Made by a program: the position numbers and the translations under genes. This document shows, piece by piece, positions 1 to 17,039 of a DNA stretch of 21,101 nucleotides (position 1 is its first letter; every line of letters starts with the position of its first letter). Location of the stretch: NCBI GenBank assembly GCA_022539475.1, contig VCMS01000522.1:1-21101 (forward strand), in the 5' to 3' direction. Source of the DNA: Gracilaria domingensis. Taxonomy: Eukaryota; Rhodophyta; Florideophyceae; Gracilariales; Gracilariaceae. The notes beneath the pieces are model-generated. The model was not told where the DNA came from. It worked only from the letters and a program-made list of their open reading frames with translations, and did not search any database.

Positions 1-1466
1 CACAGTCATCACTTGCCTTGTACATCAAATCCCCAAAGCTTCTGCAGCATCGAGACAGGTACCTCCTGTTGCTTTTCCAGAACACACAACGTTCGAAGCA
101 TTTCCCGAATCGGGTACGTAAAAGGCTTTCCTGACTCCGTCTCTCCTTTCCATCGACGCTCAAGTACTGACATCGAAGTATCAACCACGTTCCTTATCGC
201 ACCGTAACCGGGCCAGTGTTCCGTAACCAGTGACTTCTTTGTGGTCTGCAATTCTTCATGATACATACTCAGTGCATCCTCTTTTGCTTCCGCCATTCGT
301 CTCACGTACTTTCGAACACCGGCACCGGTCACAGCCAAAAGTAAAGGTATTCCTGCACAAGTCAACAGAATCTCCTCCAACGCCTCCATATTGCTCGGGT
401 TCTGAATCCTGCACTCCTCCAACTCAGCGTGATTCAGAAACATGATTCGCGAATCCTCTTCTTTTCTGGCTTCAAACGTTATGAATTCGTCGGCCTTCCG
501 AGCGAGCTCAAGGTCCCTCGTCGTGTACACAAGACGACTGTCAGCGTTCATCATATGTGCAAGAATGCGAAATGTCTCCCCATCAAACCCGTTCTCTTCC
601 CATACATCGTCAACCAGGAAGAGACATGTGTGATTCACGAACCATTGCCTGGCCTTGTCCACAGCTTCCTGCAGTTTCCTTCCACGTATAGTGTTCGCGA
701 GCTTCTGGTTTCCGGTCTTTTCAACAATCTCCGCAATCTTTCCACTGAGATCAACCATTTTAGCATCCGCTCCCAGTTGCATAAACTGCACACCATCCGG
801 AAACCTGCTTTTCACATCAGCCAAACTACTGTTCAATCCCCGGAGCGCGCACGTCTTTCCAACTCCGCCCCGCCCGGCAGCCACAACCGCTAGCACTTTG
901 TGCTCCGATGTTCGCAGTACCGCTGCCTTGAGCTTTCCTTCAGACGTCTGCAAAGATTCGTAATCCAGAGTGAGTCGTGGTGGATTGGGCGGCACAGTTC
1001 CATGTTTCAGAAAATGCACATCAGTTTGTGCCAAATCATCACCGTCTGTCACTGCCGCTTCTCTCTCTTTTACAAACTCTTCAAACTTCTCCACAGTGCC
1101 CTCGACTTCGGTCAAAGTTTGGTTCGCGAGCTGTACTCGATGCAATAGCGTAGCACTCGCAACGTCTGGCGCTAGCTTGACACACCTTTCCCTCGCCTGC
1201 TGCAACCTAGTTCTCCAAGTGCACAACATATGAGACGAAGAGTGTTGTCCACTTGGCTCGTTGATCCAAACTTGAACACGTTGCAGATGTTGATCGAGCA
1301 GTTGTTGAACGTGTCTCAATCTTTCGCGGTTGCGCGAGGCCAGGTCGTGGTGGCGAACAGGGGCTTTGAGTTTGTCCTCCACGTACATGAGAGCGGCTGG
1401 GGCCGCAGCTGCGACTGCAGCGGCCGCGGCTGCGACTGCAGCGGCCGCGGAGACTGGCTCTGCCAT
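1..1466 (-). CDS. G1: NB-ARC STAND/NLR-like receptor, N-terminal part, runs off left edge
   Basis: This is the N-terminal third of an NLR-like ATPase receptor. The start is the ATG at 1464-1466, chosen because the paralogs share it and it sits in an ATGGC context. Residues 4-26 are an Ala/Val-rich hydrophobic stretch. Residues 27-140 are helical and charged, a possible signalling bundle of unassigned family. A Pro-rich linker (158-163) leads into the NB-ARC domain: Walker A GRGGVGKT at 198-205, Walker B/kinase-2 LFLVDDVW at 282-289, RNBS-B-like SRLVYTTRD at 310-318, and GLPL-like CAGIPLLLA at 370-378. The winged-helix region begins near 450. These motifs predict a nucleotide-dependent oligomerisation switch (family knowledge). 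The apparent stop at 9-11 is probably spurious: the first 30 bases carry five extra bases relative to G3, so the real frame should continue leftward into the WD40 part. It is over 99% identical to the start of G3. Confidence 0.85.
1408..1449. repeat. 21-bp tandem duplication in the Ala-rich N-terminal codons of G1
   Basis: Two perfect adjacent 21-bp copies (1408-1428 and 1429-1449) encode the AAVAAAA-type repeat of the N-terminal hydrophobic stretch. G2 has a single copy, so its helix is 7 residues shorter. An in-frame 21-bp unit keeps the reading frame, so the tract can change length without breaking the gene. Confidence 0.9.
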
Positions 1467-1643
1467 TCAAGCGTTGAGCTAATGTGAGTGATTCAAACTC
1501 GAAAGTAGCAATGGTAACCGGAGCGGCGTGCGACCGGTGCTTGTGATGCCGAGGCGCGTTCGTTCGGAAAAGCGGGAAACGAGCAGAAAAAAGTCGAGTC
1601 GTTCGATTTCGGCAACGAGAAGGTTCGACGACGTATGAGCTGG

Positions 1644-1654
1644 ATTTATTCGAC
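1644..1654 (-). promoter_or_regulatory. Candidate TATA-like core promoter element of G1
   Basis: On the coding strand this reads GTCGAATAAAT, 178 bp upstream of the G1 ATG. The same 11 bases occur 177 bp upstream of the G2 ATG although the surrounding DNA has diverged. AT-rich sequence is otherwise scarce here. The role as a TATA-like element is inferred from conserved sequence and spacing only. Confidence 0.35.
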
Positions 1655-2348
1655 TGAGCAAACCAGCTGCGCCATAGTGGCCAATCTGGTACATCAGAAA
1701 TGCACGGAGAGGCGGTTTGCGAGGGAATGACGGATAGATGAGTGGAGGAGAGAAGGAGACACTGATGGAGACGATTGATCGACAGCGAAGACTGTCAGTT
1801 GGAAGCCCAAGTGATCGCGAGACGCTGATGCCTGCTTGAGGAGTTTGAGAGACATGCTGGTGTTGCTAGCTAGTTGTCATACTACAGCAAGGGCACTTGC
1901 GCATTGATGTCATGCGATCGTGGCGTGTGCACATGTACACGTATACGCCGTCATCCATCAATGGCAGATGTGACACTTCGGAACTGAAATCCCTAATTCC
2001 CACATGCTGCCTTTTCGTCTTCTCCAACAGTTGTGTACTCCCACAGGCAGCTCCATGATGCTTCTCCTTCATGTTGACGAATGCAGAATTGACTACTTTT
2101 GTCCGTTGTCAACATACCTGGGGACCCTTCTGCAAATCGCACAATGCATCGCGCCCGTGTCAAGCTCGGAAGAAAAACGCATATGCGGCGAGACGGCGAG
2201 CTACGTGTTGTTGTGCGCCATGTGGCGCTTTCCGCACACGCCAATAAAGCGCCGGCAACAAAACGCGCTCGCCGAGTGTGTCGCGCCAAGCGCCGTGTGA
2301 CCCGCGCGCCACGCCCGGCACGTGGCACGCGTCCCTCCCGCACGGGCG

Positions 2349-2362
2349 GCGCGCGCGCGCGC
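2349..2362. repeat. (GC)7 dinucleotide run
   Basis: This is an alternating GC run inside the GC-rich shared intergenic block. It is absent from the type-B counterpart near 9860. Alternating GC can adopt Z-DNA (general knowledge). It recurs at 16100-16113 in the second copy. Confidence 0.8.
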
Positions 2363-2395
2363 ATCGGCGGGTGGGCGGCACGGGCCGCGGGGAGG

Positions 2396-3220
2396 CCAAA
2401 ACTAGGACATCGAGAGACACATGGCCACAAATAGCCTACATTTTTCTGTCGTCTCGGCCTCTTTGTTGAATTTCGATGTAGTACACAGTGTACGCTACAG
2501 CCGGGATAGCTATCAGTACCTTTGGTATCTCAATGGCTCTCTGCGCGCCGTAACCCTGATGGTCTTCCAGCGTTGGCACATAATTTCTAACGAGGCAAGA
2601 GGGCCCCATAGCACAAAGACGGCGGTATAGGCGTCAATGACGAACCTCGGTTGGTCTGGGCGATTGAGCGGACCATTGCGGTCGACGAGGTCACAAATGG
2701 GCTCCCTGGCGACACTCCGGCGAAGATGCTTGCCAACTGTGTGGCCCACGCCCGAATCTCGAGAGCCAGCGCGAGCATGTCAGTTGACTGGCACACATGT
2801 CAGTAGGTGCCCACGTGGACGCGCTGTCGAAAGGCAGCAATTCCACAACGGCAGCTCCAGGCGGCGGCACGCGAGGCCGACGCGTGGCGTCGCCGCGTCG
2901 AATCGAATCGCGGCCGTCGAGTTGGCAGCGCGCGCCGCGCTCCCGCCGTCGGGAGCGACAGCACGGCTGTGACAGCCGCCAGTTGGGCGTCCCTCGCGCA
3001 GCTTTTCCTCCCGCAGCTGTTCGATCTCGCGGGGAGCATTTCCCGGGATGCCGCTCGCACGTGCTGCTCAGCGCGGCTGACTCGCCCTCTGCGGGGCTTC
3101 GCGATGGGTCGAGCCCTCCTCGTCAAAGCTTTCGGTCACGGCCGCGTATGACCTTGCGCAGTGAGTGGCACTGCCTCGGACCACCGCCGGAGAGAGACAC
3201 GCGACGACAGTTGTTCGGGG
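2396..3220. other. Type-A-specific stretch of about 825 bp, absent from type B
   Basis: Sequence flanking this stretch aligns to type B near 9905 and 10045, but the stretch itself does not. It includes a less GC-rich half (2430-2800) with several small palindromes (2481-2493, 2505-2514) and a GC-rich half (2800-3150) with an unassigned 114-codon plus-strand frame (2807-3151). I see no transposase motif and did not find terminal inverted repeats. It may be an insertion in type A or a deletion in type B. Ends are approximate. Confidence 0.5.
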
Positions 3221-3250
3221 GAAGCAGCCCTCGTCTGTACATCGTCGCAA

Positions 3251-3288
3251 GTGTATGCAGCCATCGCTCGCAACATGGCTGCATACAC
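3251..3288. repeat. Long perfect hairpin, type A
   Basis: Arms of 14 bp (GTGTATGCAGCCAT and its complement at 3275-3288) flank a 10-base loop. The structure is kept in type-B DNA at 10084-10121 with a different loop, although flanks there are poorly conserved. It sits about 1.6 kb from the G2 stop and 1.8 kb from the G1 start. It could be a structured RNA element, a terminator-like signal or a mobile-element remnant; I cannot decide. Confidence 0.85.
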
Positions 3289-4087
3289 CGCTCCTAATGC
3301 CAATAGCTCGTGTTGAAGGAATCCTTCAATGATCGGTCTCCCAGCCCTTCTGTCCAGTCGGTACTCGCATGTATACCTCCTGACAGCTCTCTGCCACGCA
3401 ATTGCCCTTATGCGCTTCCAACTGGCGGAAATGATGGCGTATCTTACAACCAAGAAGGGCGCATGGGACAAACCCGAAAAGGGTGGGAGCCAATTGAGAT
3501 TCGTGGTTGTTTCGAGCGTCTCAGAGAACATTGCTGGCGAACTGACGGATACGTGGACACGCCTGCAAACTCATGCAGCGTAATCTCAATTCTGGCTTAC
3601 ACAAGGAACTGGAGCCAAAACTGCAAAACTTGCTTCAATTTTTGCCTTTCTTCGCAAATGATGCTGATCTCTTCAATTCTACGCCGCGTCTTCCCCATCG
3701 CGCCCGTCTCCCTTTTTGCGACGACCTCTTTCACTTGGGATGTACCAAACGCAGAAACCGTCGCTCACTCCGACAGCCCGCTCCTTGTTTTCTCCGCACT
3801 TGCCGCACATGGCCTAACCTTTTCCTCGCTCCATGTGTGCGAGTAAAACGTGTACAACGGTACGGTACCTCGAATGCTTGCATTCATGTCTGCGCGCATG
3901 CCACAACGCAACTCCACCCCCAACACGGAGGACCAATTCTTCTTTCTGACAGAGTGCCCCCATAGCTGAGTGACTGTCGGCGTGGGCCGAGTCATGTCGC
4001 AGACGCACAAACATGATATCAAGAAGCGCACTTGTTTGCCAGACAGTTGAAAATCGATCCGGTCACTCAGGCAGATAACGATGTTTC

Positions 4088-4195
4088 CCTGCGCAGGTGC
4101 AACCCACGCAGCACGTGGGTAGCCTACGCAATTCAGTTTACAAACTGAATTCGGTGACGGTGGAACATCTCCACCTACGCAGTGCCTACACTGCG
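4088..4195. repeat. Run of five consecutive perfect inverted repeats
   Basis: In order: CCTGCGCAGG (4088-4097); ACCCACG with its complement around a 5-base loop (4102-4120); arms AATTCAGTTT around AC (4130-4151); GGTGGA around ACATC (4159-4175); CGCAGTG around CCTA (4178-4195). These cover 86 of 108 bases and are separated by only 2-9 bases. The type-B region has unrelated sequence at this place (10464-10545). The function is unknown. Confidence 0.88.
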
Positions 4196-4289
4196 AAGCC
4201 ATCAACAGCTACTTCAATTTGTTTGGGGGTTAGCGCTTCGCAGACCAAGCCAGAATCGAAAGTGCCTCGCACCCAGGCATACTAAAACA

Positions 4290-4309
4290 GGAAGCGTGGC
4301 CAGGCTTCC
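4290..4309. repeat. 20-base near-perfect palindrome downstream of G2
   Basis: GGAAGC and GCTTCC flank the palindrome TGGCCA with one G opposite G on each side. It is identical in type B (10614-10633) and in the second type-A copy (18041-18060). A perfect ATGAGCTCAT palindrome follows at 4325-4334 in type A and is also kept in type B. Confidence 0.75.
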
Positions 4310-4573
4310 AGTGTGGACTGCAAAATGAGCTCATGTGGTCAAGCGTACCGTTACTCTATCCCTCTGATGATCGCAGCTCCTCGAAAGACAATGGTCTCTA
4401 TAACAGAGCTCAAATCTTTGTGGATTGCTCCCCTCTTTCTTTTGCAACTCAAGTACTCTCTTTTTCATTCTTTTACGGCTAATCGAAGCTTTACGACCTT
4501 CTCGATGAATGCGTTTTTGAGGTTTGCTCTATGATTTAGATGGCACAAATTGGAAGTCGACCTCTGCCACACT

Positions 4574-4714
4574 CTGTTTCAGCAAGCTCCGTTGCACTCG
4601 TTCTGTTTTGGCGTTGTTTGGCCGTCCGTTTGTACACGCACGCTCCAACCGGTATGGAGTGATACGACTGTGCGTTGCGCACATTGGGCAGGCAGCTGAG
4701 GCAAGCTTGGCGAC
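4574..4714. other. 141-bp block, 100% identical between types A and B, downstream of G2
   Basis: Every base matches 10912-11052, while sequence on both sides differs at roughly one base in ten. It begins about 135 bp past the G2 stop on the coding strand, so it could be part of the 3-prime UTR. It holds two short inverted repeats: CTCCA/TGGAG around an ACCGGT core (4643-4659) and TGTGCG/CGCACA (4669-4683). No open frame is convincingly shared through its flanks. Confidence 0.85.
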
Positions 4715-4848
4715 GTGGAGCGGTGCTTTGATGTAAATGTGTTGAGAAAAAGATGGCACTGTCATGAGGCGCGCAATGCGTGAAATGACGAGTTTGATGT
4801 TTCTGTTCGTGGCGATTCTGGCATATGGCGATGTGACAAAACAAACGA

Positions 4849-6276
4849 TCATTGCTGCGGAAGACAGAATCGCAAACCTCTGCCGGGATTGACCAATGGG
4901 GCGAGGAAGAAGCCAAACTGGTAGCGGCGGCAGGGATGTTCGGATGTGCCAAGCCACAGCTTGCCCTTGTGCGGGGCGTCGAACTCCAGCCTTCTTGACC
5001 GCTGCCACCACAGCGGCAGCTGGTGCGGCGCCGGGTGTGGCACGCACGTGTCGTCGTGCAAGCTGCACAGCTGCGAGGAGTTATCCGCAAGCATCACATC
5101 GACAGCGCCGGCGCGCAGCGACACGAAAATCGGAATTTTGCCCGCGAGCGAGAAGCGGTGCGTGGCCACGCGCTGCGCCACGTCCCACACGACCAACACG
5201 TCGTCGTCGTATCCCGCCGCCACTCGCGCGCCGTCGTCGCACATGGCCACGCACCGTGTCGGCACGGGCTGCAAGTGCGCGCGCAGCGCGCCGCCGACAG
5301 CGGCGCCGCGGCGCGTGTCCCACACGCGCACGTCGCCGTCACCGTCGCCCGACGCGGCGCGCGAGCCGTCCGCGCACAGCGCCACGCACAACACGTGCTC
5401 ACCGTGGCCGAGCAGCGCGTCGCACACGGCGGCGCCGGAGCGCACGTCCCACACGCGCACCGCACGGTCGTGCCGACCGCCGGACGCGAGCCGCCGCGCG
5501 TCCGCGCTGAACGAAAGCGCCGCCACGGTGCGCTCGTGCGCGCGCAGCACCTGCGGCCGCAGCGCGCCGCTGGCGCCGTCCCACAGCCGCACCGTCCCGT
5601 CCAGCGACCCCGTCGCAATCCACCGCCCGTCAGCGCTCACGCACACACACTCAATCGCCTCCTCATGCGCGTCCTCACCGCGGCTGCCGCTCTCCGCCTG
5701 CGCGCCCCTCACATCCCACACTCGAACGCTTCCGCCATCCATCCCGGCAAGCCCGACAGAGCCGTCTTCACTTGCACCCACGAAACGAACCCAACCACCC
5801 CCCGTACCCCCTTGTATCACGCCTCTTTCGCTCCCATGCTCCCACACGCCATAGCCTCCATCAACTGCACCCCAAAAAACCAGTTTCCCATCTTCACTGA
5901 GCGCTGCGCTACTCCCAGAAAGTCCGGCTTCAACAAAGTTCAAGTAACTTCCGCTCTCAGCGTCCAGCACTCCAATCATTCCACCATACAAAGTTCCCGT
6001 TACAATCAGTTCCCCATTTCCACTGAACGCCACACTTGCCACAGAACCATCATTCTCACAGATCTTTTCGCCGCTCTCTGCGTCCCATACGTAAACTCCA
6101 CCCTCTTCCAACCCACAACACACCTTCCTTCCCGTCGAGCTCACAGCAACGCACTCGACATTCCCTTCTTTCCCACTCACAAGTTCCCGAGCAGTTCCAT
6201 CGCCCTGCAGGTCCCACGTTACCACATTGCCAACATCTGCCAGCCCACACGCAACCCATCTCGAATCCTCGCTCAC
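4849..6276 (-). CDS. G2 segment: WD40 beta-propeller, C-terminal part
   Basis: This 475-residue open segment holds roughly ten WD40-like blades, each ending in variants of VRVWD or VRLWD followed by a GA or SG turn. It then has a Cys/His/Pro-containing tail that closes with RFCLPQQ and TGA. The first residue shown is an internal Met after the frameshift at about 6300. WD40 propellers in STAND proteins act as ligand-sensing or autoinhibitory surfaces. The last five blades (about 5100-5690) are far richer in GC than the earlier ones. Differences from G3 cluster after the AH/GH dipeptide and after the SG/AG dipeptide of each blade. The sequence is identical to the corresponding part of G4. Confidence 0.85.
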   Translation of the reverse strand: MSEDSRWVACGLADVGNVVTWDLQGDGTARELVSGKEGNVECVAVSSTGRKVCCGLEEGGVYVWDAESGEKICENDGSVASVAFSGNGELIVTGTLYGGMIGVLDAESGSYLNFVEAGLSGSSAALSEDGKLVFWGAVDGGYGVWEHGSERGVIQGGTGGGWVRFVGASEDGSVGLAGMDGGSVRVWDVRGAQAESGSRGEDAHEEAIECVCVSADGRWIATGSLDGTVRLWDGASGALRPQVLRAHERTVAALSFSADARRLASGGRHDRAVRVWDVRSGAAVCDALLGHGEHVLCVALCADGSRAASGDGDGDVRVWDTRRGAAVGGALRAHLQPVPTRCVAMCDDGARVAAGYDDDVLVVWDVAQRVATHRFSLAGKIPIFVSLRAGAVDVMLADNSSQLCSLHDDTCVPHPAPHQLPLWWQRSRRLEFDAPHKGKLWLGTSEHPCRRYQFGFFLAPLVNPGRGLRFCLPQQ

Positions 6277-7130
6277 ACAAATGCACCAAATCGCTTCCTC
6301 CTTCCCACACTACTCTCCACGTCCCTCGCAGCGTCCCACTTCTTCACGTTATTATCAGCATCCACGTACACAACCATTCGTCCATCTTTTGACAACGCAG
6401 CGGATCCATACCTTCTTATCTTTCTTTCAAAACGGTTTAGACTGCCGTGCGTTAAGTTGTACTTCACTATTTCCAACTTCTCACCATACCTGACCAAGAT
6501 TGTCAACTCACTCTTATGTTTATGAATACCCAATACGTCCCCCTCCACTTGTATGCTCTCCAAATCAGCGCCCCCAGCAGCCGTCAGGAACCCTTCTTCC
6601 GCTCTCAACCATGCTTCTTCTCTCTTCTCTGCAATCTCCGCAACTTGCTCCAAAAACTCACGCGTCGTCTTACACTTCTTTGAATGCGTTATCAGTCGTC
6701 CATACAGCTGGAACCACACCTCCCGTGGGTTTCGTGACACTGCGACCTGGCTTAGTCTCGCCGCATGTGCAATCACTTCCAGTGCCCTCTTCTTCTCTTC
6801 CTTCCTTTCCATGCTTGAACGAACGAGTGCTGTTTGCCCATTTGAAACTTCACTCTCAACAGCAAAGATTCCACTCTCTGTGAGACGCTTCGCTATCCAT
6901 TCAGGCTTCAGTAGCAGCCAAACCAATTCTTCATCTTCTCCGGCGTCCTTGAGCAGTCGGCAAACGTTGCTCTCCAGGTACCCATCTCTGTCTTCCACAC
7001 CCCACCATTCTCGTCTTCTGCATTCCTTCATACAGTCTACAACCGGTGCGTCTTCCACAACTGCCGCATTCTGGACAATATCGGCCCTACCTTTGTCCGG
7101 CTTCCAACAGCACACTTTCCTTAACTTCAT
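6273..7130 (-). CDS. G2 segment: helical linker and first WD40 blades
   Basis: This 285-residue open segment starts with LRKVCCWKPDKGR. It continues with an acidic and aromatic helical region containing LVWLLLKPEWIAKRL, which resembles the helical domain that follows the winged helix in APAF-1-like and bacterial NB-ARC-WD40 proteins (family-level resemblance). A Lys/Glu-rich, coiled-coil-like stretch follows (TREFLEQVAEIAEKREEAW), and then the first two propeller blades, ending at VKKWDAARDVESSVG. The frame is lost near 6300, where one C is missing from a CCC run that is intact in G4. About 98-99% of its bases match G3, clearly more than in the WD40 part. Confidence 0.75.
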   Translation of the reverse strand: MKLRKVCCWKPDKGRADIVQNAAVVEDAPVVDCMKECRRREWWGVEDRDGYLESNVCRLLKDAGEDEELVWLLLKPEWIAKRLTESGIFAVESEVSNGQTALVRSSMERKEEKKRALEVIAHAARLSQVAVSRNPREVWFQLYGRLITHSKKCKTTREFLEQVAEIAEKREEAWLRAEEGFLTAAGGADLESIQVEGDVLGIHKHKSELTILVRYGEKLEIVKYNLTHGSLNRFERKIRRYGSAALSKDGRMVVYVDADNNVKKWDAARDVESSVGRRKRFGAFV

Positions 7131-7790
7131 CCAAATCCTGCTCTTCTCACCTCAGCAGCTCCTAAACTATTCGGAACCACTTCGGATATTCTGTCAACTT
7201 TAGCAGTATCATCTCCAATGTACCCATTCAATAATCGCTTAATGTACCTGCGCTTCTCATCTCCCGAATCATGACGCAACACATCCAAAATGTCGTCATG
7301 CACACGCAGCACCTTCTTCTTCCCTCGAATCGCAATCTCCACCACAGCCACCGAGTCTAGAGCTTCCATCACCTTCACAGCCTCACCTGCCTCACTCAAT
7401 CCCCAAAGCTTCTGCAGCATCGAGACAGGTACTTCCTGCTGCTTTCCAGAACACACAATGTTCGAAGCATTTCCCGAATCGAGTACGTAAAAGGCTTCCT
7501 GACTCCGTCTCTCCTTTCCATCGACGCTCAAGTACTGACATCGAAGTATCAACCACGTTCCTTATCGCACCGTAACCGGGCCAGTGTTCTGTAACCAGTG
7601 ACTTCTTTGTGGCCTTCAACTCTTTATGATACATACTCAGTGCATCCTCTTTTGGTTCTGCCATTCGCGTCACGTATTTTCGAACACCGGCACCGGTCAC
7701 AGCCAAAAGTAAAGGTATTCCTGCACAAGTCAACAGAATCTCCTCCAACGCCTCCATATTGCTCCTATTCCGAATCTCCCACTCCTCCAA
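7127..7790 (-). CDS. G2 segment: end of NB-ARC and winged helix with VHD motif, two internal frameshifts
   Basis: This stretch joins two overlapping open segments (7790-7392 and 7552-7127). It encodes the GLPL-like CAGIPLLLA, a Trp/Tyr-rich helix, and the winged-helix region ending in VLRVHDDILDVL. The VHD there stands where the MHD motif of NLRs lies. Two single T losses, near 7492 and 7437, put about 55 bases out of frame between them. A third loss near 7152 ends the segment. Reading through these sites by comparison with G3 and G4 gives a continuous homologous protein. Confidence 0.7.
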
Positions 7791-7801
7791 CTCAGCGTGA
7801 T

Positions 7802-8596
7802 TCAGAACATGATTCGCGAATCCTCTTCTTTTCTGGCTTCAAACGTTATGAGTTTGTCGGCCTTCCGAGCGAGCTCAAAGTCCCTCGTCGTGTACACAAG
7901 ACGACTGTCAGCGTTCATCATATGTGCAAGAATGCGAAATGTCTCCCCATCAAACCCGTTCTCTTCCCATACATCGTCAACCAGGAAGAGACATGTGTGG
8001 TTCACAAACCATTGCCTGGCCTTGTCCACAGCTTCCTGCAGTTTCTTTCCACGTATAGTGTTCGCCAGCTTCGGGTTTCCGGTCTTTTCAACAATCTCCG
8101 CAATCTTTCCACTGAGATCAACCATCTTAGCATCCGCTCCCAGTTGCATAAACTGCACACCATCCGGAAACCTGCTTTTCACATCAGCCAAACTACTGTT
8201 CAATCCCCGAAGCGCGCACGTCTTTCCAACTCCGCCCCGCCCGGCAGCCACAACCGCCAGCACTTTGTGCTCCGATGTTCGCAGTACCGCTGCCTTGAGC
8301 TTTCCCTCAGACGTCTGCGATGATTCGTAATCCAGAGTGAGTCGTGGTGGATTGGGCGGCACGGTTCCATGTTTCAAAAAGTGGACGTCAGTTTGTGCCA
8401 AACCATCACCGTCTGTAACCGCCACTTCTCTCTCTCTTACAAACTCTTCAAACTTCTCCACGGTGCTCTCGACTTCGGTCAGGGTTTGGTTTGCGGGCTG
8501 TACTCGATGCAATAGCGTAGCACTCGCAACGTCTGGCGCTAGCTTGACACACCTTTCCTTCGCCTGCTGCAACCTAGTTCTCCAAGTGCGCAGCAT
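7802..8596 (-). CDS. G2 segment: helical bundle and NB-ARC ATPase core
   Basis: This is the open segment of G2 holding the second half of the N-terminal helical region and most of the NB-ARC domain. Walker A is GRGGVGKT, the Walker B strand is LFLVDDVW, and the RNBS-B-like motif is SRLVYTTRD. Compared with G1 and G3 it differs at scattered single residues, such as TGNPKL for TGNQKL and RGKKL for RGRKL, so the ATPase core is strongly conserved. The visible ATG at its beginning is an internal Met, not the true start. The segment ends at the lost A near 7803. Confidence 0.8.
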   Translation of the reverse strand: MLRTWRTRLQQAKERCVKLAPDVASATLLHRVQPANQTLTEVESTVEKFEEFVREREVAVTDGDGLAQTDVHFLKHGTVPPNPPRLTLDYESSQTSEGKLKAAVLRTSEHKVLAVVAAGRGGVGKTCALRGLNSSLADVKSRFPDGVQFMQLGADAKMVDLSGKIAEIVEKTGNPKLANTIRGKKLQEAVDKARQWFVNHTCLFLVDDVWEENGFDGETFRILAHMMNADSRLVYTTRDFELARKADKLITFEARKEEDSRIMF

Positions 8597-8986
8597 ATGA
8601 GACGAAGAGCGTTCTCCACTTGACTCGTTGACCCAACTTCAACATGTTGCAGTGTTGATCGAGCAGTTGTTGAACGTGTCTCAATCTTTCGCGGTTGCGC
8701 GAGGCCAGGTCGTGGTGGCGAACAGGGGCTTTGAGTTTGTCCTCCACGTACATGAGAGCGGCTGGCGCCGCGGCTGCGACTGCAGCGGCCGCGGAGACTG
8801 GCTCTGCCATGGGAAGGTTGAGCTGATGTGAATGAGCTAAACTCGAAAGTAGCAGCGGTAACGCGCGCGCCGTGCTACAGCTGTTCGTGATACCGGGACA
8901 CGTTCTTTCCGAAAAGCGGAACGGGGCACAAGAACTTGTAGGGGATCGATTGCGCGAGCGACAACGTCTGACGACGAATGAGCTAA

Positions 8987-8997
8987 ATTTATTCGAC
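8987..8997 (-). promoter_or_regulatory. Candidate TATA-like core promoter element of G2
   Basis: This is the counterpart of the element at 1644-1654, with the same 11 bases and nearly the same distance to the G2 start (8810). Confidence 0.35.
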
Positions 8998-9890
8998 GGT
9001 GCGAGCCAGGTGCGCGAGATCGCAATAGTGACCAATCTGCCACATTAGAAATGCAATGGGAGGCGGTTCGCAGAAGGACCGAGAGATGAGTGGAGAGAAC
9101 GAGAAACTGATAGAGACGGGTGGCCTGATGAGATTTGGAGATTTGGGGATTTGGAGGTGGTGGCAGTTGACAGCACAGTAATGGCACTTGCGCGTTGCTG
9201 TCATGCGATGGTGCGATGCGCTCGGCCGCGAACGAAGCCTCTGATATTGCATTTTGTGACTGGAAGTATGGTGCAGCGGCGTCACACAGAGCGTTCTAAC
9301 GCAAGCCGGTGCGCCATGCTCAGCACCGCTGCTGGGGTTCATTGTCTTGCTGTGGGGCCCCACATGCAGCGGTTGCGTTACTCGGCTGACCAGGAAAGTG
9401 CTTTGTTCGTTTGGCAGTGGGCGGAGAAGCGGCTAAAGTGGAAGAAGAAGCAAGTGAGCAACGACAGGGCGGCTGCCCTAATTGGGTACTCGAAGGCGTC
9501 CAACTGACTTTGTTTGGGAGAAGCTGAAGACATATGCTTCGGCCATCATGGCGCAGCGATATGAGGAACACACCAGGGCTGGAACGCACGCTCTGCATCC
9601 GGGATGCGCGTGAAAGGTACCTTTAGTAACGAAGACGATGGTGCTTGGCGGGGGATGCTTGACTGTCAAACATGAACTGGTGGCAAGACTGCGACACGTG
9701 CCAACCGCGGCGAGCTACGTGTTCCTGTGTGCCACGTGGCGCGTTGCGCTCACGCCAATCAAGCGCCGGCAACAAACGCGCTCGCCGAGTATGTCGAGAA
9801 AGCGCAACCCGCGCGCCACGCCCAGCACGTGGCCACGCGTCTCTCCCGAACGAGCGGAGCGCTCGCCCGCATCGGCGTGTGGGTGGCGCG

Positions 9891-9922
9891 TGCCGCGCGT
9901 GCCGCGCGTGCCGCGCGTGCCG
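9891..9922. repeat. 9-bp tandem repeat (TGCCGCGCG, about 3.5 copies)
   Basis: Three perfect units plus a partial unit lie in the GC-rich part of the type-B intergenic region. They are not present at the type-A counterpart. This is probably a simple slippage repeat. Confidence 0.8.
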
Positions 9923-10083
9923 TGGCGGCGGCCGGCGCAGTCGGCGGTGCGGAGCGTCGCGGCGATGCGCGACACACGCGAGCGGCGGGCGGCCACGCGC
10001 GGGTGGCGAGCAGCGCGCAGCCGCCAACGGCGCGCTGCGCCGCGACGCGCAGTAAGGGAGCTCTCGTTTGTCAATCGTCGCCA

Positions 10084-10121
10084 GTGTAGGCAGCCATCCC
10101 TGGCAGGATGGCTGCATACAC
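10084..10121. repeat. Long hairpin, type B
   Basis: Arms of 16 bases pair at 15 positions (one G/A mismatch) around a 6-base loop. It shares the GCAGCCAT core with 3251-3288, but the stem extends two base pairs further into what is loop in type A. Confidence 0.85.
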
Positions 10122-10613
10122 GCAAATGTTGGGAGGCAATTGCGAGCTTTGGCGGCTTCGAGCCGTCAATTTTTCTCTTCTGCAATTGCACTCCGTGTCT
10201 TCCCCCATCGCTCGCGTCTCCGCACATGGCGCAACCCTTTCCTCGTGTCTGCGAGTACGACATGTGCAACGGTACCCTTGAACGGAGGCATTCATGTCTG
10301 CGCGCATGCCACACCGCCACTCCACGCCCAACGCGGGGACCAATTTTTGTTTCTGACAGAGTGCCACCATAGCTGAGTGGTTGTCGGCGTGGGCCGAGTC
10401 ATGTCGCCGACGCACAAAAAGGATATCAAGATGCGCACTTGTTTGCCAGACAGTTGAAAATCGATGCAGTCATCCACTTTGAGCAGAACTGTTGACAAGA
10501 CAAGAACTCATTCGCAGTGCGCCTGAGTTGGTATCATCTACTTTAATATGTTTGAGGGTTAGCGCTTCGCAGAACAGAATCGAAAGTGCATCGCATCCAG
10601 GTATAGCAAAGCA

Positions 10614-10633
10614 GGAAGCGTGGCCAGGCTTCC
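10614..10633. repeat. 20-base near-perfect palindrome downstream of G3
   Basis: This is the type-B counterpart of 4290-4309. The adjoining TCCAGTCTGGA is a perfect palindrome here but has one mismatch in type A. Confidence 0.75.
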
Positions 10634-10789
10634 AGTCTGGACTGCGAAATGAGCTCATGTGATCGAGCTTACCGTCACTCTATTCCTCTGATGACTGCAG
10701 CTCCTCGAAAGACACGGGTCTCTATATCAGAGCTCAAATCCTTGTGGGTCGCTCCCCTCTTTCTTCTGCAACTCAAGTACTCTTTTTTT

Positions 10790-10795
10790 TTTATT
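10790..10795 (-). terminator. Possible AATAAA polyadenylation signal of G3
   Basis: On the coding strand AATAAA is followed by a run of A residues (T run at 10783-10792 on the plus strand), about 395 bp past the G3 stop. The type-A counterpart reads AATGAA, so conservation is weak. Algal and protist signals often differ from AATAAA. Confidence 0.2.
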
Positions 10796-10911
10796 CTTTT
10801 ACGGCTAATCGAAGCTTTACGACCTTCTCGATGATTTCATCGATGCATGTGTGTCTGAGGTTTGCTCTATGATTTAGGTGGCATCAATTAGAAGTCGACC
10901 TCTGCCACACC

Positions 10912-11052
10912 CTGTTTCAGCAAGCTCCGTTGCACTCGTTCTGTTTTGGCGTTGTTTGGCCGTCCGTTTGTACACGCACGCTCCAACCGGTATGGAGTGA
11001 TACGACTGTGCGTTGCGCACATTGGGCAGGCAGCTGAGGCAAGCTTGGCGAC
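10912..11052. other. 141-bp identical block downstream of G3
   Basis: This is the type-B copy of 4574-4714. It lies the same distance past the G3 stop and carries the same two stem-loops. Confidence 0.85.
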
Positions 11053-11186
11053 ATGAGGCGGTGCTTTGATGTAAATGGGTTGAGAAAAAGGTGGCGCTGT
11101 GATCAGGCGCGCAATGCGTGAAAGGATGAGTTTGATGTTTTTGTTCGTGGCGATTCTGGTATATACGGATGTGACAGAACAAACGA

Positions 11187-14003
11187 TCATTGCTGCAGAA
11201 GACAAAATCGCAAACCGCGATTGAGCCGTGAGACAAAGAAGAAGCCAAACTGGTAGCGGCGGCAGGAGTGCTCGGATGTGCCAAGCCACAGCTTGCCCTT
11301 GTGCGAGACGTCGAACTGCAGCGTTGTTGACCGCTGCCACCACAGCGGCAGCTGGTGCGGCGCCGGGTGCGGCACGCACGTGTCGTCGTGCAGGCTGCAC
11401 AGCTGCGGGGAGTGATACTTGAGCATCACATCGACAGCGGCGGCGCGCAGCGACACGAAAATCGGCCAACTGCCCGCGAGCGAGAAGCGGTGCGTGGCCA
11501 CGCGCTGCGCCACGTCCCACACGAGCAACACGTCCTCAAGGTGTCCCGCCGCCACTCGCGCGCCGTCGTCGGACATGGCCACGCACTCGACGAACTTCTG
11601 CTCCGGGTGCGCGCGCAGCGCGTCGCCGACGGCGGCGCCGCGGCGCGTGTCCCACACGCGCACGTCGCCGCCCACACTGCCCGACGCGGCGCGCGAGCCG
11701 TCGGCGCACAGCGCCACGCACAACACGCGGTCACCGTGGCCGCGCAGCGCGTCGCACACGGCGGCACCGGAGCGCACGTCCCACACGCGCACCGCACGGT
11801 CGAGCCCACCGCCGGACGCGAGCCGCCGCGCATCCGCGCTGAACGAAAGCTCCGCCACGTAGCCCAAGTGCGCGCGCAGCACCTGCGGCCGCAGCGCGCC
11901 GCTGGCGCCGTCCCACAGCCGCACCGTCCCGTCCCTCGACCCCGTCGCAATCCATCGCCCGTCCGCGCTCACGCACACACACGCAATCGCCTCCTCGTGC
12001 GCGTCCTCACCGCGGCTGCCGCTCTCCGCCTGCGCGCCCCTCACATCCCACACTCGAACGCTTCCGCCCCACATCCCATCCCACACTCGATCGCTTCCGT
12101 CATTCATCCCGGCAAGCCCGACAGAGCCGTCTTCACTTGCACCCACGAAACGAACCCAACCACCCCCCGTACCCCCTTGTATCACGCCTCTTTCGCTCCC
12201 ATGCTCCCACACGCCATAGCCTCCATCAATTGCACCCCACAAAACCAGTTTCCCATCTTCGCTGAGCGCTACGCTACTCACCCAAACTCCGACTTCAACA
12301 GAGTTCAAGTAACTTCCGCTCTCAGCGTCCAGCACTCCAATCATTCCACAATACGAAGTTTGCGTTACAATCAGCTCCCCATTTCCACTGAAAGCCACAC
12401 TTGCCACAGAACCATCATTTGGTGCCCGCGCCTCACAGATCTTTTCGCCGCTCTCTGCGTCCCATACGTAAACTCCACCCTTTTCCAACCCACAACAAAA
12501 CTTCCTTCCCGTCGAGCTCACAGCAACGCACTCGACATTCCCTTCTTTCCCACTCACAAGTTCCCGAGGAGATCCACCGCCCTGCAGGTCCCACGTTACC
12601 ACATTGCCAACATCTCGCAGCCCACACGCAACCCATCTCGAATCCTCGCTCAAACAAACGCACCAAATCGATGCCGTAGTCTTTCCAACACCCGTTCCCA
12701 CGTCCTTCGCAACGTCCCACTTCTTCACATTATTATCAGCGTCCACATACACAACCAATCGTCCATCTCTCGACAACGCAGCGGATTTATAGAAACCCAT
12801 CTCCGTCCCAAAACGATTTAGACTGCCGTGCGTTAGGTTGTACTTCACTATTTCCAACCGCTCATCATACGAGACCAAGATTGTCAACTCACTTTTATGC
12901 TTTTGAATATCCAATACGTCCCCCCCCACTTGTATGCTCTCCAAATCAGCCCCCCCAGCAGCCGTCAGAAACCCTTCTTCCGCTCTCAACCATGCTTCTT
13001 CTCTCTTCTCTGCAATCTCCGCAACTTGCTCCAAAAACTCACGCGTCGTCTTACACTTCTTTGAATGCGTTATCAGTCGTCCATACAGCTGGAACCACAC
13101 CTCCCGTGGGTTTCGTGACACTGCATCCTGGCTTAGTCTCGCCGCATGTGCAATCACTTCCAGTGCCCTCTTCTTCTCTTCCTTCCTTTCCATGCTTGAA
13201 CGACCGAGTGCTGTTTGCCCATTTGAAACTTCACTCTCAACAGCAAAGATTCCACTCTCTGTAAGACGCTTCGCTATCCATTCAGGCTTCAGTAGCAGCC
13301 ATACCAATTCTTCATCTTCTCCGGCGTCCTTGAGCAGTCGGCAAACGTTGCTCTCCAGGTACCCATCTCTGTCTTCCACACCCCACCATTCTCGTCTTCT
13401 GCATTCCTTCATACAGTCTACAACCGGTGCGTCTTCCACAACTGCTGCATTCTGGACAACATCGGCCCTACCTTTGTCCGGCTTCCAACAGCACACTTTC
13501 TTTAACTTCATCCAAATCCTGCTCTTCTCACCCCCAGCAGCTCCCAAATTATTCGGAACCACTTCGGATACTCTGTCAAGTTTAGCAGTATCATCTCCAA
13601 TGTACCCATTCAATAATCGCTTAATGTACCTGCCCTTCTCATCTCCCGAATCATGTCGCAACATATCCAAAATGTCGTCATGCACACGCAGCACCTTCTT
13701 CTTCCCTCGAATCGCAACCTCCACCACAGCCACCGAGTCTATAGCTTCCATTACCTTCACAGTCTCACTTGCCTTACTCAATCCCCAAAGCTTCTGCAGC
13801 ATCGAGACAGGTACCTCCTGTTGCTTTTCCAGAACACACAACGTTCGAAGCATTTCCCGAATCGGGTACGTAAAAGGCTTTCCTGACTCCGTCTCTCCTT
13901 TCCATCGACGCTCAAGTACTGACATCGAAGTATCAACCACGTTCCTTATCGCACCGTAACCGGGCCAGTGTTCCGTAACCAGTGACTTCTTTGTGGTCTG
14001 CAA
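11187..14003 (-). CDS. G3 3-prime segment: winged helix, linker and WD40 propeller
   Basis: This 938-residue open segment begins just after the frameshift, at what is residue 406 of the full protein; its first Met is an artefact of the break. It has the winged helix with VLRVHDDILDML, the KVCCWKPDKGR and LVWLLLKPEWIAKRL linker region, and about 11-12 WD40-like repeats. It is the only uninterrupted linker-to-stop reading frame in the window, so it is the best reference for this family. Confidence 0.87.
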   Translation of the reverse strand: MQTTKKSLVTEHWPGYGAIRNVVDTSMSVLERRWKGETESGKPFTYPIREMLRTLCVLEKQQEVPVSMLQKLWGLSKASETVKVMEAIDSVAVVEVAIRGKKKVLRVHDDILDMLRHDSGDEKGRYIKRLLNGYIGDDTAKLDRVSEVVPNNLGAAGGEKSRIWMKLKKVCCWKPDKGRADVVQNAAVVEDAPVVDCMKECRRREWWGVEDRDGYLESNVCRLLKDAGEDEELVWLLLKPEWIAKRLTESGIFAVESEVSNGQTALGRSSMERKEEKKRALEVIAHAARLSQDAVSRNPREVWFQLYGRLITHSKKCKTTREFLEQVAEIAEKREEAWLRAEEGFLTAAGGADLESIQVGGDVLDIQKHKSELTILVSYDERLEIVKYNLTHGSLNRFGTEMGFYKSAALSRDGRLVVYVDADNNVKKWDVAKDVGTGVGKTTASIWCVCLSEDSRWVACGLRDVGNVVTWDLQGGGSPRELVSGKEGNVECVAVSSTGRKFCCGLEKGGVYVWDAESGEKICEARAPNDGSVASVAFSGNGELIVTQTSYCGMIGVLDAESGSYLNSVEVGVWVSSVALSEDGKLVLWGAIDGGYGVWEHGSERGVIQGGTGGGWVRFVGASEDGSVGLAGMNDGSDRVWDGMWGGSVRVWDVRGAQAESGSRGEDAHEEAIACVCVSADGRWIATGSRDGTVRLWDGASGALRPQVLRAHLGYVAELSFSADARRLASGGGLDRAVRVWDVRSGAAVCDALRGHGDRVLCVALCADGSRAASGSVGGDVRVWDTRRGAAVGDALRAHPEQKFVECVAMSDDGARVAAGHLEDVLLVWDVAQRVATHRFSLAGSWPIFVSLRAAAVDVMLKYHSPQLCSLHDDTCVPHPAPHQLPLWWQRSTTLQFDVSHKGKLWLGTSEHSCRRYQFGFFFVSRLNRGLRFCLLQQ

Positions 14004-15217
14004 TCTTCATGATACATACTCAGTGCATCCTCTTTTGCTTCCGCCATTCGTCTCACGTACTTTCGAACACCGGCACCGGTCACAGCCAAAAGTAAAGGTA
14101 TTCCTGCACAAGTCAACAGAATCTCCTCCAACGCCTCCATATTGCTCGGGTTCTGAATCCTGCACTCCTCCAACTCAGCGTGATTCAGAAACATGATTCG
14201 CGAATCCTCTTCTTTTCTGGCTTCAAACGTTATGAATTCGTCGGCCTTCCGAGCGAGCTCAAGGTCCCTCGTCGTGTACACAAGACGACTGTCAGCGTTC
14301 ATCATATGTGCAAGAATGCGAAATGTCTCCCCATCAAACCCGTTCTCTTCCCATACATCGTCAACCAGGAAGAGACATGTGTGATTCACGAACCATTGCC
14401 TGGCCTTGTCCACAGCTTCCTGCAGTTTCCTTCCACGTATAGTGTTCGCGAGCTTCTGGTTTCCGGTCTTTTCAACAATCTCCGCAATCTTTCCACTGAG
14501 ATCAACCATTTTAGCATCCGCTCCCAGTTGCATAAACTGCACACCATCCGGAAACCTGCTTTTCACATCAGCCAAACTACTGTTCAGTCCCCGGAGCGCG
14601 CACGTCTTTCCAACTCCGCCCCGCCCGGCAGCCACAACCGCTAGCACTTTGTGCTCCGATGTTCGCAGTACCGCTGCCTTGAGCTTTCCTTCAGACGTCT
14701 GCAAAGATTCGTAATCCAGAGTGAGTCGTGGTGGATTGGGCGGCACAGTTCCATGTTTCAGAAAATGCACATCAGTTTGTGCCAAATCATCACCGTCTGT
14801 CACTGCCGCTTCTCTCTCTTTTACAAACTCTTCAAACTTCTCCACAGTGCCCTCGACTTCGGTCAAAGTTTGGTTCGCGAGCTGTACTCGATGCAATAGC
14901 GTAGCACTCGCAACGTCTGGCGCTAGCTTGACACACCTTTCCCTCGCCTGCTGCAACCTAGTTCTCCAAGTGCACAACATATGAGACGAAGAGTGTTGTC
15001 CACTTGGCTCGTTGATCCAAACTTGAACACGTTGCAGATGTTGATCGAGCAGTTGTTGAACGTGTCTCAATCTTTCGCGGTTGCGCGAGGCCAGGTCGTG
15101 GTGGCGAACAGGGGCTTTGAGTTTGTCCTCCACGTACATGAGAGCGGCTGGGGCCGCAGCTGCGACTGCAGCGGCCGCGGCTGCGACTGCAGCGGCCGCG
15201 GAGACTGGCTCTGCCAT
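11187..15217 (-). CDS. G3: complete NB-ARC-WD40 receptor, one frameshift near 14004
   Basis: This is the most intact copy, predicted at about 1,343 residues. The start is the ATG at 15215-15217 and the stop is TGA at 11187-11189. Approximate order: Ala-rich helix 4-26, helical bundle 27-160, NB-ARC 185-400 (GRGGVGKT 198-205, LFLVDDVW 282-289), winged helix to VHD at 512-514, helical linker 560-775, WD40-like repeats about 780-1260, and a tail ending RFCLLQQ. The only break is a missing T near 14004 (CAATCTTC, against CAATTCTTC in G1). It splits the frame into 15217-13946 and 14003-11187. The blade-7 region carries an extra 33-bp duplication. I infer a STAND receptor whose propeller senses a ligand and whose N-terminal bundle signals after NB-ARC oligomerisation. 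Target and partners are unknown. Confidence 0.87.
12044..12101. repeat. 33-bp-spaced internal duplication in blade 7 of G3
   Basis: A 25-base stretch at 12044-12068 recurs at 12077-12101 with two differences. It adds 11 residues, giving GSDRVWD then GSVRVWD where G2 and G4 have only GSVRVWD. It looks like slippage within a WD strand motif and could alter one edge of the propeller. Confidence 0.8.
13946..15217 (-). CDS. G3 5-prime segment: Ala helix, helical bundle, NB-ARC
   Basis: This 423-residue open segment is identical in protein sequence to G1 up to the frameshift near 14004. Beyond it the last 19 or so residues (from DCRPQRSH) are out of frame and should not be read as a real C-terminus. 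The rest of the gene continues in the 14003-11187 segment. The one base difference noted from G1 in this part (near 14587) is synonymous. Confidence 0.8.
   Translation of the reverse strand: MAEPVSAAAAVAAAAAAVAAAAPAALMYVEDKLKAPVRHHDLASRNRERLRHVQQLLDQHLQRVQVWINEPSGQHSSSHMLCTWRTRLQQARERCVKLAPDVASATLLHRVQLANQTLTEVEGTVEKFEEFVKEREAAVTDGDDLAQTDVHFLKHGTVPPNPPRLTLDYESLQTSEGKLKAAVLRTSEHKVLAVVAAGRGGVGKTCALRGLNSSLADVKSRFPDGVQFMQLGADAKMVDLSGKIAEIVEKTGNQKLANTIRGRKLQEAVDKARQWFVNHTCLFLVDDVWEENGFDGETFRILAHMMNADSRLVYTTRDLELARKADEFITFEARKEEDSRIMFLNHAELEECRIQNPSNMEALEEILLTCAGIPLLLAVTGAGVRKYVRRMAEAKEDALSMYHEDCRPQRSHWLRNTGPVTVR
15159..15200. repeat. 21-bp tandem duplication in the Ala-rich N-terminal codons of G3
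   Basis: This is the same two-copy repeat as in G1, carried in the right copy of the 7.35-kb segment. Confidence 0.88.
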
Positions 15218-15394
15218 TCAAGCGTTGAGCTAATGTGAGTGATTCAAACTCGAAAGTAGCAATGGTAACCGGAGCGGCGTGCGACCGGTGCTTGTGATGC
15301 CGAGGCGCGTTCGTTCGGAAAAGCGGGAAACGAGCAGAAAAAATTCGAGTCGTTCGATTTCGGCAACGAGAAGGTTCGACGACGTATGAGCTGG

Positions 15395-15405
15395 ATTTAT
15401 TCGAC
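15395..15405 (-). promoter_or_regulatory. Candidate TATA-like core promoter element of G3
   Basis: This is the second copy of the 1644-1654 element within the 13.75-kb repeat, upstream of the G3 start at 15217. Confidence 0.35.
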
Positions 15406-17001
15406 TGAGCAAACCAGCTGCGCCATAGTGGCCAATCTGGTACATCAGAAATGCACGGAGAGGCGGTTTGCGAGGGAATGACGGATAGATGAGTGGAGGA
15501 GAGAAGGAGACACTGATGGAGACGATTGATCGACAGCGAAGACTGTCAGTTGGAAGCCCAAGTGATCGCGAGACGCTGATGCCTGCTTGAGGAGTTTGAG
15601 AGACATGCTGGTGTTGCTAGCTAGTTGTCATACTACAGCAAGGGCACTTGCGCATTGATGTCATGCGATCGTGGCGTGTGCACATGTACACGTATACGCC
15701 GTCATCCATCAATGGCAGATGTGACACTTCGGAACTGAAATCCCTAATTCCCACATGCTGCCTTTTCGTCTTCTCCAACAGTTGTGTACTCCCACAGGCA
15801 GCTCCATGATGCTTCTCCTTCATGTTGACGAATGCAGAATTGACTACTTTTGTCCGTTGTCAACATACCTGGGGACCCTTCTGCAAATCGCACAATGCAT
15901 CGCGCCCGTGTCAAGCTCGGAAGAAAAACGCATATGCGGCGAGACGGCGAGCTACGTGTTGTTGTGCGCCATGTGGCGCTTTCCGCACACGCCAATAAAG
16001 CGCCGGCAACAAAACGCGCTCGCCGAGTGTGTCGCGCCAAGCGCCGTGTGACCCGCGCGCCACGCCCGGCACGTGGCACGCGTCCCTCCCGCACGGGCGG
16101 CGCGCGCGCGCGCATCGGCGGGTGGGCGGCACGGGCCGCGGGGAGGCCAAAACTAGGACATCGAGAGACACATGGCCACAAATAGCCTACATTTTTCTGT
16201 CGTCTCGGCCTCTTTGTTGAATTTCGATGTAGTACACAGTGTACGCTACAGCCGGGATAGCTATCAGTACCTTTGGTATCTCAATGGCTCTCTGCGCGCC
16301 GTAACCCTGATGGTCTTCCAGCGTTGGCACATAATTTCTAACGAGGCAAGAGGGCCCCATAGCACAAAGACGGCGGTATAGGCGTCAATGACGAACCTCG
16401 GTTGGTCTGGGCGATTGAGCGGACCATTGCGGTCGACGAGGTCACAAATGGGCTCCCTGGCGACACTCCGGCGAAGATGCTTGCCAACTGTGTGGCCCAC
16501 GCCCGAATCTCGAGAGCCAGCGCGAGCATGTCAGTTGACTGGCACACATGTCAGTAGGTGCCCACGTGGACGCGCTGTCGAAAGGCAGCAATTCCACAAC
16601 GGCAGCTCCAGGCGGCGGCACGCGAGGCCGACGCGTGGCGTCGCCGCGTCGAATCGAATCGCGGCCGTCGAGTTGGCAGCGCGCGCCGCGCTCCCGCCGT
16701 CGGGAGCGACAGCACGGCTGTGACAGCCGCCAGTTGGGCGTCCCTCGCGCAGCTTTTCCTCCCGCAGCTGTTCGATCTCGCGGGGAGCATTTCCCGGGAT
16801 GCCGCTCGCACGTGCTGCTCAGCGCGGCTGACTCGCCCTCTGCGGGGCTTCGCGATGGGTCGAGCCCTCCTCGTCAAAGCTTTCGGTCACGGCCGCGTAT
16901 GACCTTGCGCAGTGAGTGGCACTGCCTCGGACCACCGCCGGAGAGAGACACGCGACGACAGTTGTTCGGGGGAAGCAGCCCTCGTCTGTACATCGTCGCA
17001 A

Positions 17002-17039
17002 GTGTATGCAGCCATCGCTCGCAACATGGCTGCATACAC
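17002..17039. repeat. Long perfect hairpin, second type-A copy
   Basis: This is an identical copy of 3251-3288 within the 13.75-kb repeat. Confidence 0.85.

Follow-up and report, generated by a model that had tools for sequence, protein, structure and literature searches.

Among the systems closest to the genes described here are the fungal HNWD/NWD proteins (HET-D, HET-E, and HET-R of Podospora anserina), which are NOD-like receptor (NLR)-type proteins with a WD40 sensor. Codons 7, 9, 25, and 27 of the HNWD repeat, around the conserved codons 8 and 26, are positively selected (Paoletti et al., 2007, PMC1805685), and later work gives a seven-position set (10, 11, 12, 14, 30, 32, and 39) and an internal repeat identity of 80% (PMC12222747). 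Diversity at hotspot registers on the top face of the propeller has also been described for highly repetitive WD40 proteins of bacteria and other organisms (Hu et al., 2017, PMC5587647); these differ in that most are not eukaryotic NB-ARC receptors and that the accessible literature gives no dN/dS between close paralogues. In red algae, Chondrus crispus has 61 NB genes, 58 of which have WD40 repeats, and 23 of those 58 a TIR domain (PMC7145615); NB-ARC+WD40 transcripts of Pyropia increase during red rot, and NBS+WD40 genes are attributed to Porphyra umbilicalis (PMC6928737); rhodophyte NB-ARC/WH/APAF1_C/WD40 proteins and C. crispus TIR-NBARC-WD40 proteins are also mentioned (PMC8891106, PMC9806590). 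In its accessible parts, this literature is concerned with architecture, phylogeny, or expression and treats neither selection by site nor hypervariable registers, and PMC9218822 does not contain the terms “Chondrus,” “rhodophy,” or “red alga.” Red-algal NB-ARC–WD40 genes are therefore already known, but their register-wise diversification was not found in the open literature; searches there for work on site-wise selection or hypervariable repeats in red-algal NLRs yielded no paper, most subscription papers and preprints lying outside it. Here, we describe such genes on contig VCMS01000522.1 of Gracilaria domingensis (assembly GCA_022539475.1, 77.9 Mb in 680 contigs). The window analyzed is this entire contig (C522; 21,101 bases), and its minus strand, to which all gene coordinates below refer, contains parts of four copies (G1–G4) of one gene family, where a preliminary description had placed them. 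The window genes are NB-ARC-WD40 NLRs of red algae. We consider it likely that the family consists of NLR-type receptors in which the propeller sensor has been diversified by selection at a few residues per blade and renewed by exchange between paralogues.

Ten blades were numbered by setting the conserved V that follows GHxxx to register 8 and the D of SGSxD to register 26. This numbering appears to match that of the fungal HNWD repeat, and the later seven-position set, shifted by five, would then correspond to registers 5, 6, 7, 9, 25, 27, and 34 (the seven HNWD registers); registers 7, 9, 25, and 27 are referred to as the four registers. Both sets were fixed from the fungal work, not from the data analyzed. 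We projected 26 gene copies and codon-aligned ten close paralogues on four contigs (the replicate set excluded): C522_G3, C70_d72k, C74_a, C74_c, C74_d, C70_a, C70_b, C70_e, C70_f, and C96. Two of the ten, C74_a and C74_c, are mosaics of other copies. Five other paralogues, three of C148 together with C39 and C232, served as a replicate set. Copies were left out when they were near-identical to those used (C522_G2, C522_G4, and C70_c, the last also with stops), contained stops (C74_b, C123_a, C143, C144, and C339), were partial (C331), or were more divergent (C84 and C160). The site models were run with our own code, not PAML or HyPhy, and their site posteriors are naive rather than full Bayes.

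The resulting selection pattern is strong. For the ten paralogues over residues 396–845, twice the log-likelihood difference (2ΔlnL) between models M8 and M7 was 224.9, and 25 sites had a posterior > 0.95. All 25 were in blades, and 19 were at the four registers: eight at register 7, six at 9, five at 25, and none at 27, the others being at 24 (two), 6 (two), 26 (one), and 5 (one). Every M8 site thus fell at registers 5–9 or 24–26, i.e., with the blade periodicity that the preliminary description had expected. Without the mosaics C74_a and C74_c, 2ΔlnL was 250.7 and 22 sites were obtained: 17 at the four registers, two at 24, and one each at 6, 26, and 28. In 30 simulated null data sets with 60% neutral sites, 2ΔlnL was 0–6.0, against 287 for the data under the same simplified, coarser-grid optimizer. 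A FUBAR-like analysis of residues 396–845 gave 27 sites with a posterior > 0.9, 23 of them in numbered blades, where they occupied 15 of the 39 codons at the four registers and 8 of the 303 elsewhere (Fisher p = 1.2e-10). When these 39 codons were treated as a fixed class, omega (dN/dS) was 5.88 vs. 0.75 in the rest (2ΔlnL of 179 against omega = 1); the ratio, which the preliminary description had proposed to check across many copies, is above and not below 1. A separate tree for each blade gave 5.17 at the four registers vs. 0.58 (2ΔlnL of 182), and the replicate set gave 2.79 vs. 0.61 (2ΔlnL of 49). With a counting method based on the proportions of non-synonymous (pN) and synonymous (pS) differences, pN/pS was 2.58 at the four registers (pN 0.356, pS 0.138), 0.57 at blade codons outside the seven HNWD registers, and 0.37 in residues 1–395. 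None of 20,000 register rotations of the ten paralogues reached the observed non-synonymous rate of 0.356 (highest rotated value, 0.253), so the register pattern exceeds chance. The likeness to HET-D/HET-E that had been proposed from the sequence of the window therefore holds at registers 7, 9, and 25 of the codons of Paoletti et al. (2007) and is weak at 27; positive selection at the HNWD codons is found at three of the four.

The same registers stand out when the two propeller types of the window, type A (G2 and G4) and type B (G3), are compared directly. Between positions 5401–5730 and the G3 counterpart, about nine replaced and five synonymous codons had been reported, and our recount gave exactly nine and five. 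Eight of the nine replacements are at registers 5, 6, 7, 9, 10, 24a, or 25, in agreement with the earlier placement after AH/GH and after SG/GS; the ninth is L/R in DAL-GH, just before GH. The remark that several codons are changed at two or three bases is correct for two bases (three of the nine) but not for three (none), and six codons are changed at one base. G2 and G4 cannot be counted as separate observations, as had been done, because their propeller open reading frames (ORFs) are identical at 1428 of 1428 bases; two sequences are compared, not three. Over the propeller region, G3 and the G2-type copy C70_d72k have 85.2 non-synonymous and 29.8 synonymous differences, with 38.2 vs. 6.8 at the seven HNWD registers and 31.5 vs. 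15.5 at the other blade registers. If these codons were subject to local hypermutation or biased conversion, without selection on the protein, the three two-base changes and the elevated pS at the four registers (0.138 vs. 0.085) would be in keeping with it. However, synonymous differences rise 1.6-fold and non-synonymous ones about 7-fold, and neither of the adjacent registers, 8 and 10, has a supported site; we regard this explanation as very improbable.

The positions of these sites were examined in AlphaFold2 (AF2) models. The model of G3 residues 345–938 reads as two propellers (mean predicted local distance difference test, pLDDT, of 78; predicted template modeling score, pTM, of 0.55), with the last 57 residues below 50. 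Its Foldseek matches include a highly repetitive propeller, double propellers, and full-length Apaf-1, at template modeling (TM) scores below 0.5. From the AF2 strands and blade registers, we read the WD40 region as divided into propeller 1 (approximately 12039..12950; blades 1–6 and one preceding blade) and propeller 2 (approximately 11364..12008; blades 7–10 and a further blade). Sites were mapped on the predicted secondary structure, not on coordinates. Registers 8–13 form strand a and 19–24 strand b in nine of the ten blades, blade 1 being less well formed, and registers 5–7 and 25–27 are predicted to be loops with single exceptions. In the geometry of a WD40 blade, the d-a and b-c loops both face one side of the propeller. 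On the predicted model, the selected sites are in or beside these two loops and hence on one propeller side, as the preliminary description had anticipated. The a-b and c-d loops (registers 14–18 and 34–36) hold none of the 25 M8 sites, and the FUBAR-like analysis places one site each at registers 15 and 34. Beyond the numbered blades, sites 862, 863, 864, and 866 are in or beside a predicted loop of a further blade, and sites 891–928 are in the unreliably modeled tail.

In propeller 2 of G3, the selected registers of blade 7 are in registers 7–9 on the d-a loop side (11982..11990; register 7, M8 posterior 0.99) and in registers 25–27 of the b-c loop (11928..11936; register 25, 1.00). In blade 8, registers 5–9 (11853..11867) read AH-LGYVA in G3 and AH-ERTVA in G2/G4, with posteriors of 0.99, 0.95, and 1.00 at registers 5, 6, and 7, and registers 24a–27 of the b-c loop (11796..11807) read GLDR in G3 and RHDR in G2/G4, with a FUBAR-like value of 0.93 at register 27 and no M8 site. 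The corresponding segments are registers 5–9 (11721..11735; registers 7 and 9, 0.96 and 1.00) and 24–27 (11667..11678; registers 24 and 25, 0.98 and 1.00) in blade 9, and registers 4a–9 (11586..11606; registers 7 and 9, 0.97 and 1.00) and 24–27 (11532..11543; register 25, 1.00) in blade 10.

Several copies combine the sequences of others. C74_a is identical to G3 over residues 397–633 and to type A over residues 646–793, C74_c is similar, and C70_b, at 93.7% identity overall, matches G3 without a difference for 302 bp (residues 508–608). Single mosaic copies may be assembly chimeras. In a compatibility test, near sites were more compatible with each other than in permuted data (0 of 2000 permutations), both with nine genes (C70_f left out) and with seven (the mosaics also removed). 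Within the sister gene L062 (contig C45), WD40 repeats 3 and 7, which are four units apart, have 99% DNA identity vs. 62–86% for other pairs, which reflects recent internal exchange or duplication. Exchange between repeats and between paralogues, as in the concerted evolution of HNWD genes, is thus observed in this family.

Internal repeats were collected with a finder that uses a simple pattern and misses blades, and 82 of 207 proteins and genes reached the six repeats needed. In nine sister genes from the same genome, the mean pairwise repeat identity was 0.82 (L072), 0.72 (L073), 0.71 (L062), 0.61 (two genes), and lower in the other four; only L072 passes the 80% given for HNWD. The window genes themselves lack high internal repeat conservation, their blades having diverged. 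Such conservation has been measured in Viridiplantae, metazoa, and Dikarya (PMC4986451). In the 12 red-algal repeat sets with an identity of at least 0.70 (three from this genome, three from Gracilariopsis chorda, and six from C. crispus), the mean entropies were highest at registers 7, 25, 9, 6, and 27, and 2 of the 91,390 four-register sets, the HNWD set itself included, matched or exceeded the entropy sum of the HNWD set. The C45 repeats had a pN/pS of 1.25 at the four registers and 0.27 outside the seven.

The following results weigh against our interpretation. In all six repetitive WD40 sets (identity at least 0.60) not named as red-algal, some of them bacterial, the four registers were more variable than the rest, so register variability among internal repeats is general to highly repetitive WD40 proteins. 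In the C220c repeats, from which repeats 1 and 2 were excluded for the codon-level comparison, pN/pS was 0.78 at the four registers, i.e., not above 1, and 0.44 outside the seven. Register 27, one of the four fungal codons, had no M8 site and FUBAR-like support at one of nine codons. Eleven shifted register sets gave omega values of 0.23–4.53, the highest at shift −2 (4.53), with 2.38 at −1 and 2.10 at +2; the value at −2 is expected because its registers {5, 7, 23, 25} overlap the hot registers. A full-length FUBAR-like analysis gave 43 sites > 0.9, of which 6 were before residue 395 and 12 after 845, so selection extends beyond the numbered blades, and pN/pS in the tail was 0.99 by the counting method. 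The null simulation modeled neither recombination nor multi-base mutations. Finally, the basis is a sequence comparison of paralogues from one genome.

The first of these points, together with the hotspot diversity of Hu et al. (2017), fits a relaxed constraint on exposed top-face loops that is general to repetitive WD40 families and involves no selection. Relaxation would, however, bring omega up to 1, whereas the values observed were 5.9, 5.2 (blade trees), and 2.8 (separate subgroup). At the four registers, pN exceeds pS, and no M8 site is in the a-b or c-d loops. We regard relaxed constraint as rather improbable. Variable registers do not by themselves indicate immunity; more weight falls on the omega above 1 found between close paralogues.

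The window contains two distinct genes of the family. The first ORF of G3 (13946..15217; 423 aa) contains an N-terminal helical domain (14705..15217; 171 aa) and an NB-ARC domain (14030..14689; PF00931, 63 bits; E = 8.2e-17, residues 177–396), and it overlaps in another frame the second ORF (11187..14003; 938 aa), which contains the post-NB-ARC region, the two WD40 propellers (PF00400, E = 8.7e-37), and the C-terminal tail. At locus L002, a close paralogue, the same stretch is in one open frame of 1341 aa. G1 (9..1466; 485 aa), cut by the contig start, contains the N-terminal domain and an NB-ARC domain (PF00931, E = 6.5e-17, over the cut-off) and repeats about 13760–15217 of G3. The type A propeller ORF of G2 (4849..6276; 475 aa) has a WD40 match at E = 9e-39, and the upstream part of G2 (6273..9035), delimited by the ORF list and profile matches, consists of several overlapping ORFs in different frames (6273–7130, 7127–7552, 7392–7790, 7802–8596, and 8574–9035), with a Pfam NB-ARC match at 7853–8305. 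The G4 propeller ORF (18600..20129; 509 aa) is also of type A and is the same as that of G2 over the shared 1428 bases. An 11-residue insert that doubles the RVWD motif of blade 6 (window about 12060–12101) is present in G3 and C74_d and absent in the other 13 of the 15 aligned members.

The N-terminal domain of G3 is predicted to be all helical (helices 5–69, 78–104, and 108–155), with a mean pLDDT of 73 in an AF2 model built from an alignment of 16 family members. No Foldseek match to this model was below E = 0.001, the plant NLR resistosomes 6j5t (E = 0.15) and 7xc2 (E = 1.9) appearing among many helical bundles, and naming the domain was rejected. In G3 and L002, an alanine-rich run near the N-terminus (window about 15179–15199) exceeds that of the other 14 aligned members by 7–8 residues, probably through repeat slippage. 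No TIR match was found by Pfam in the window genes or L002. In sister genes, by contrast, L061 has a TIR domain (residues 13–123) followed by NB-ARC and WD40 repeats, the L073 gene has a TIR match in the same open frame, and L062 has no TIR match (Pfam). Family members therefore differ in their N-terminal domain, which is TIR in L061 and predicted to be helical in the window subfamily. Winged-helix or APAF1_C-like parts gave no Pfam match in L002 and below-cut-off matches in L061 and L062.

The contig overlaps itself. Positions 1..7351 repeat 13758–21101 at 99.76% identity with 7 mismatches and 11 gap openings, so G1 repeats G3 and G4 repeats G2. The ends of C522 are one sequence with a period of about 13.75 kb. 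Contigs C70 and C74, too, match parts of C522 at 99.6–99.8%, and C522 may be a redundant or over-wrapped assembly of the C70/C74 cluster. This leaves the comparison of types A and B untouched, at two sequences and not three. The self-overlap, the near-duplication of parts of C70 and C74, and the stops and frame breaks of some copies are nevertheless what would be seen if the differences came from assembly or sequencing artefacts or from decaying gene copies. An artefact would not place changes at shared blade registers across ten copies from four contigs, and these copies include the open frames of 1328–1341 aa in L002, L005, and L008. Decay would leave dN/dS near 1 along the whole of a copy, whereas the counting method separates residues 1–395 (0.37) from the four registers (2.58). 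We consider this explanation hardly credible. Elsewhere in the assembly, C104 8173–9464 and C494 17449–18740 have equal NB-ARC and TIR scores and are probably duplicate contigs, and C680, which holds the sole match to the RuBisCO large subunit in the assembly (67190–68110), is probably a plastid contig.

The genome repertoire comprises 88 NB-ARC matches over the cut-off, fragments and duplicate contigs included, and by a hand count, 27 of the 30 TIR matches are at most 1 kb from an NB-ARC match. On C28 (271976–298307), four TIR-NB-ARC copies with equal TIR scores lie in a row, the first three 6236 bases apart. The closest named relatives of a sister gene are G. chorda entries named “Vegetative incompatibility protein HET-E-1” and C. 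crispus NB-ARC/WD40 proteins, and the first 430 residues of L002 have 34–40% identity to five G. chorda entries among 11 matches. The window family belongs with the NB-ARC-WD40 and TIR-NB-ARC-WD40 genes of C. crispus, Pyropia yezoensis, and G. chorda, which are homologues of the same architecture.

Its genes look to work like the fungal HNWD proteins by analogy: both are NLR-type proteins with a WD40 sensor and positively selected codons 7, 9, and 25, and some of the sister genes also have highly similar internal repeats that vary at 7, 9, 25, and also 27. The fungal proteins have NACHT and HET, whereas the red alga has NB-ARC with a TIR or helical N-terminal domain; in addition, the window genes have diverged blades and a weak codon 27, and they are known from sequence, not from incompatibility genetics. 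Membership of the fungal HNWD family was rejected, because neither NACHT nor HET was found in the Pfam tables of the N-terminal parts, NB-ARC being found instead. The arrangement of NB-ARC followed by two WD40 propellers recalls APAF1 and the apoptosome, and two sister genes have the below-cut-off APAF-1-like winged-helix matches; the Foldseek superposition was poor (TM 0.33–0.46). APAF1 is a conserved gene whose propellers bind cytochrome c, and we know of no such diversification in it.

Because all of the data compare paralogues in one genome, duplicated propellers that have specialized to fixed endogenous partners (subfunctionalization) could give the same signal under genuine diversifying selection, without recognizing non-self. 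The repertoire, however, is large, occurs in clusters, and includes copies that are broken or mosaic, the architecture is that of NLRs with TIR in many members, and 5–8 combinations of the four registers occur in nine of the ten blades among 8–10 genes; we regard subfunctionalization as unlikely, and non-self recognition as the likeliest use of the propellers.

On the reading that we favor, a receptor diversified at a few residues per blade, the protein would sense through its two WD40 propellers, with NB-ARC as the switch and a helical domain at the N-terminus. Diversifying selection would repeatedly alter registers 7, 9, and 25, and less often 5, 6, 24, 26, and 27, while the scaffold changes little, and the altered residues would together line one side of the propellers. 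Exchange between paralogues, in units as small as a few blades, would add new combinations. A varying target, presumably non-self or a pathogen product, may be bound on this side and release the NB-ARC switch, whereupon a signal, probably for cell death, would pass from the N-terminal domain, whether helical or TIR. Red-algal cell fusion, the coalescence of sporelings, and parasites that act by fusion are an obvious biological setting; parasitic red algae enter host cells by fusion and deliver nuclei to them. More tentatively, florideophytes might possess an NB-ARC-WD40 self/non-self system that arrived independently at the same hypervariable propeller residues as the fungal incompatibility receptors, is renewed by exchange of repeats and propellers, and polices thallus cell fusion and parasitic red algae. 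The immune receptors of red algae, an old lineage of multicellular organisms, have been little studied. Positive selection on the blade residues known from HNWD, in proteins with another NTPase and other N-terminal domains, would strongly exemplify convergence in receptor design, and with a known set of codons, resequencing can put immunity and allorecognition in red algae to a direct test.

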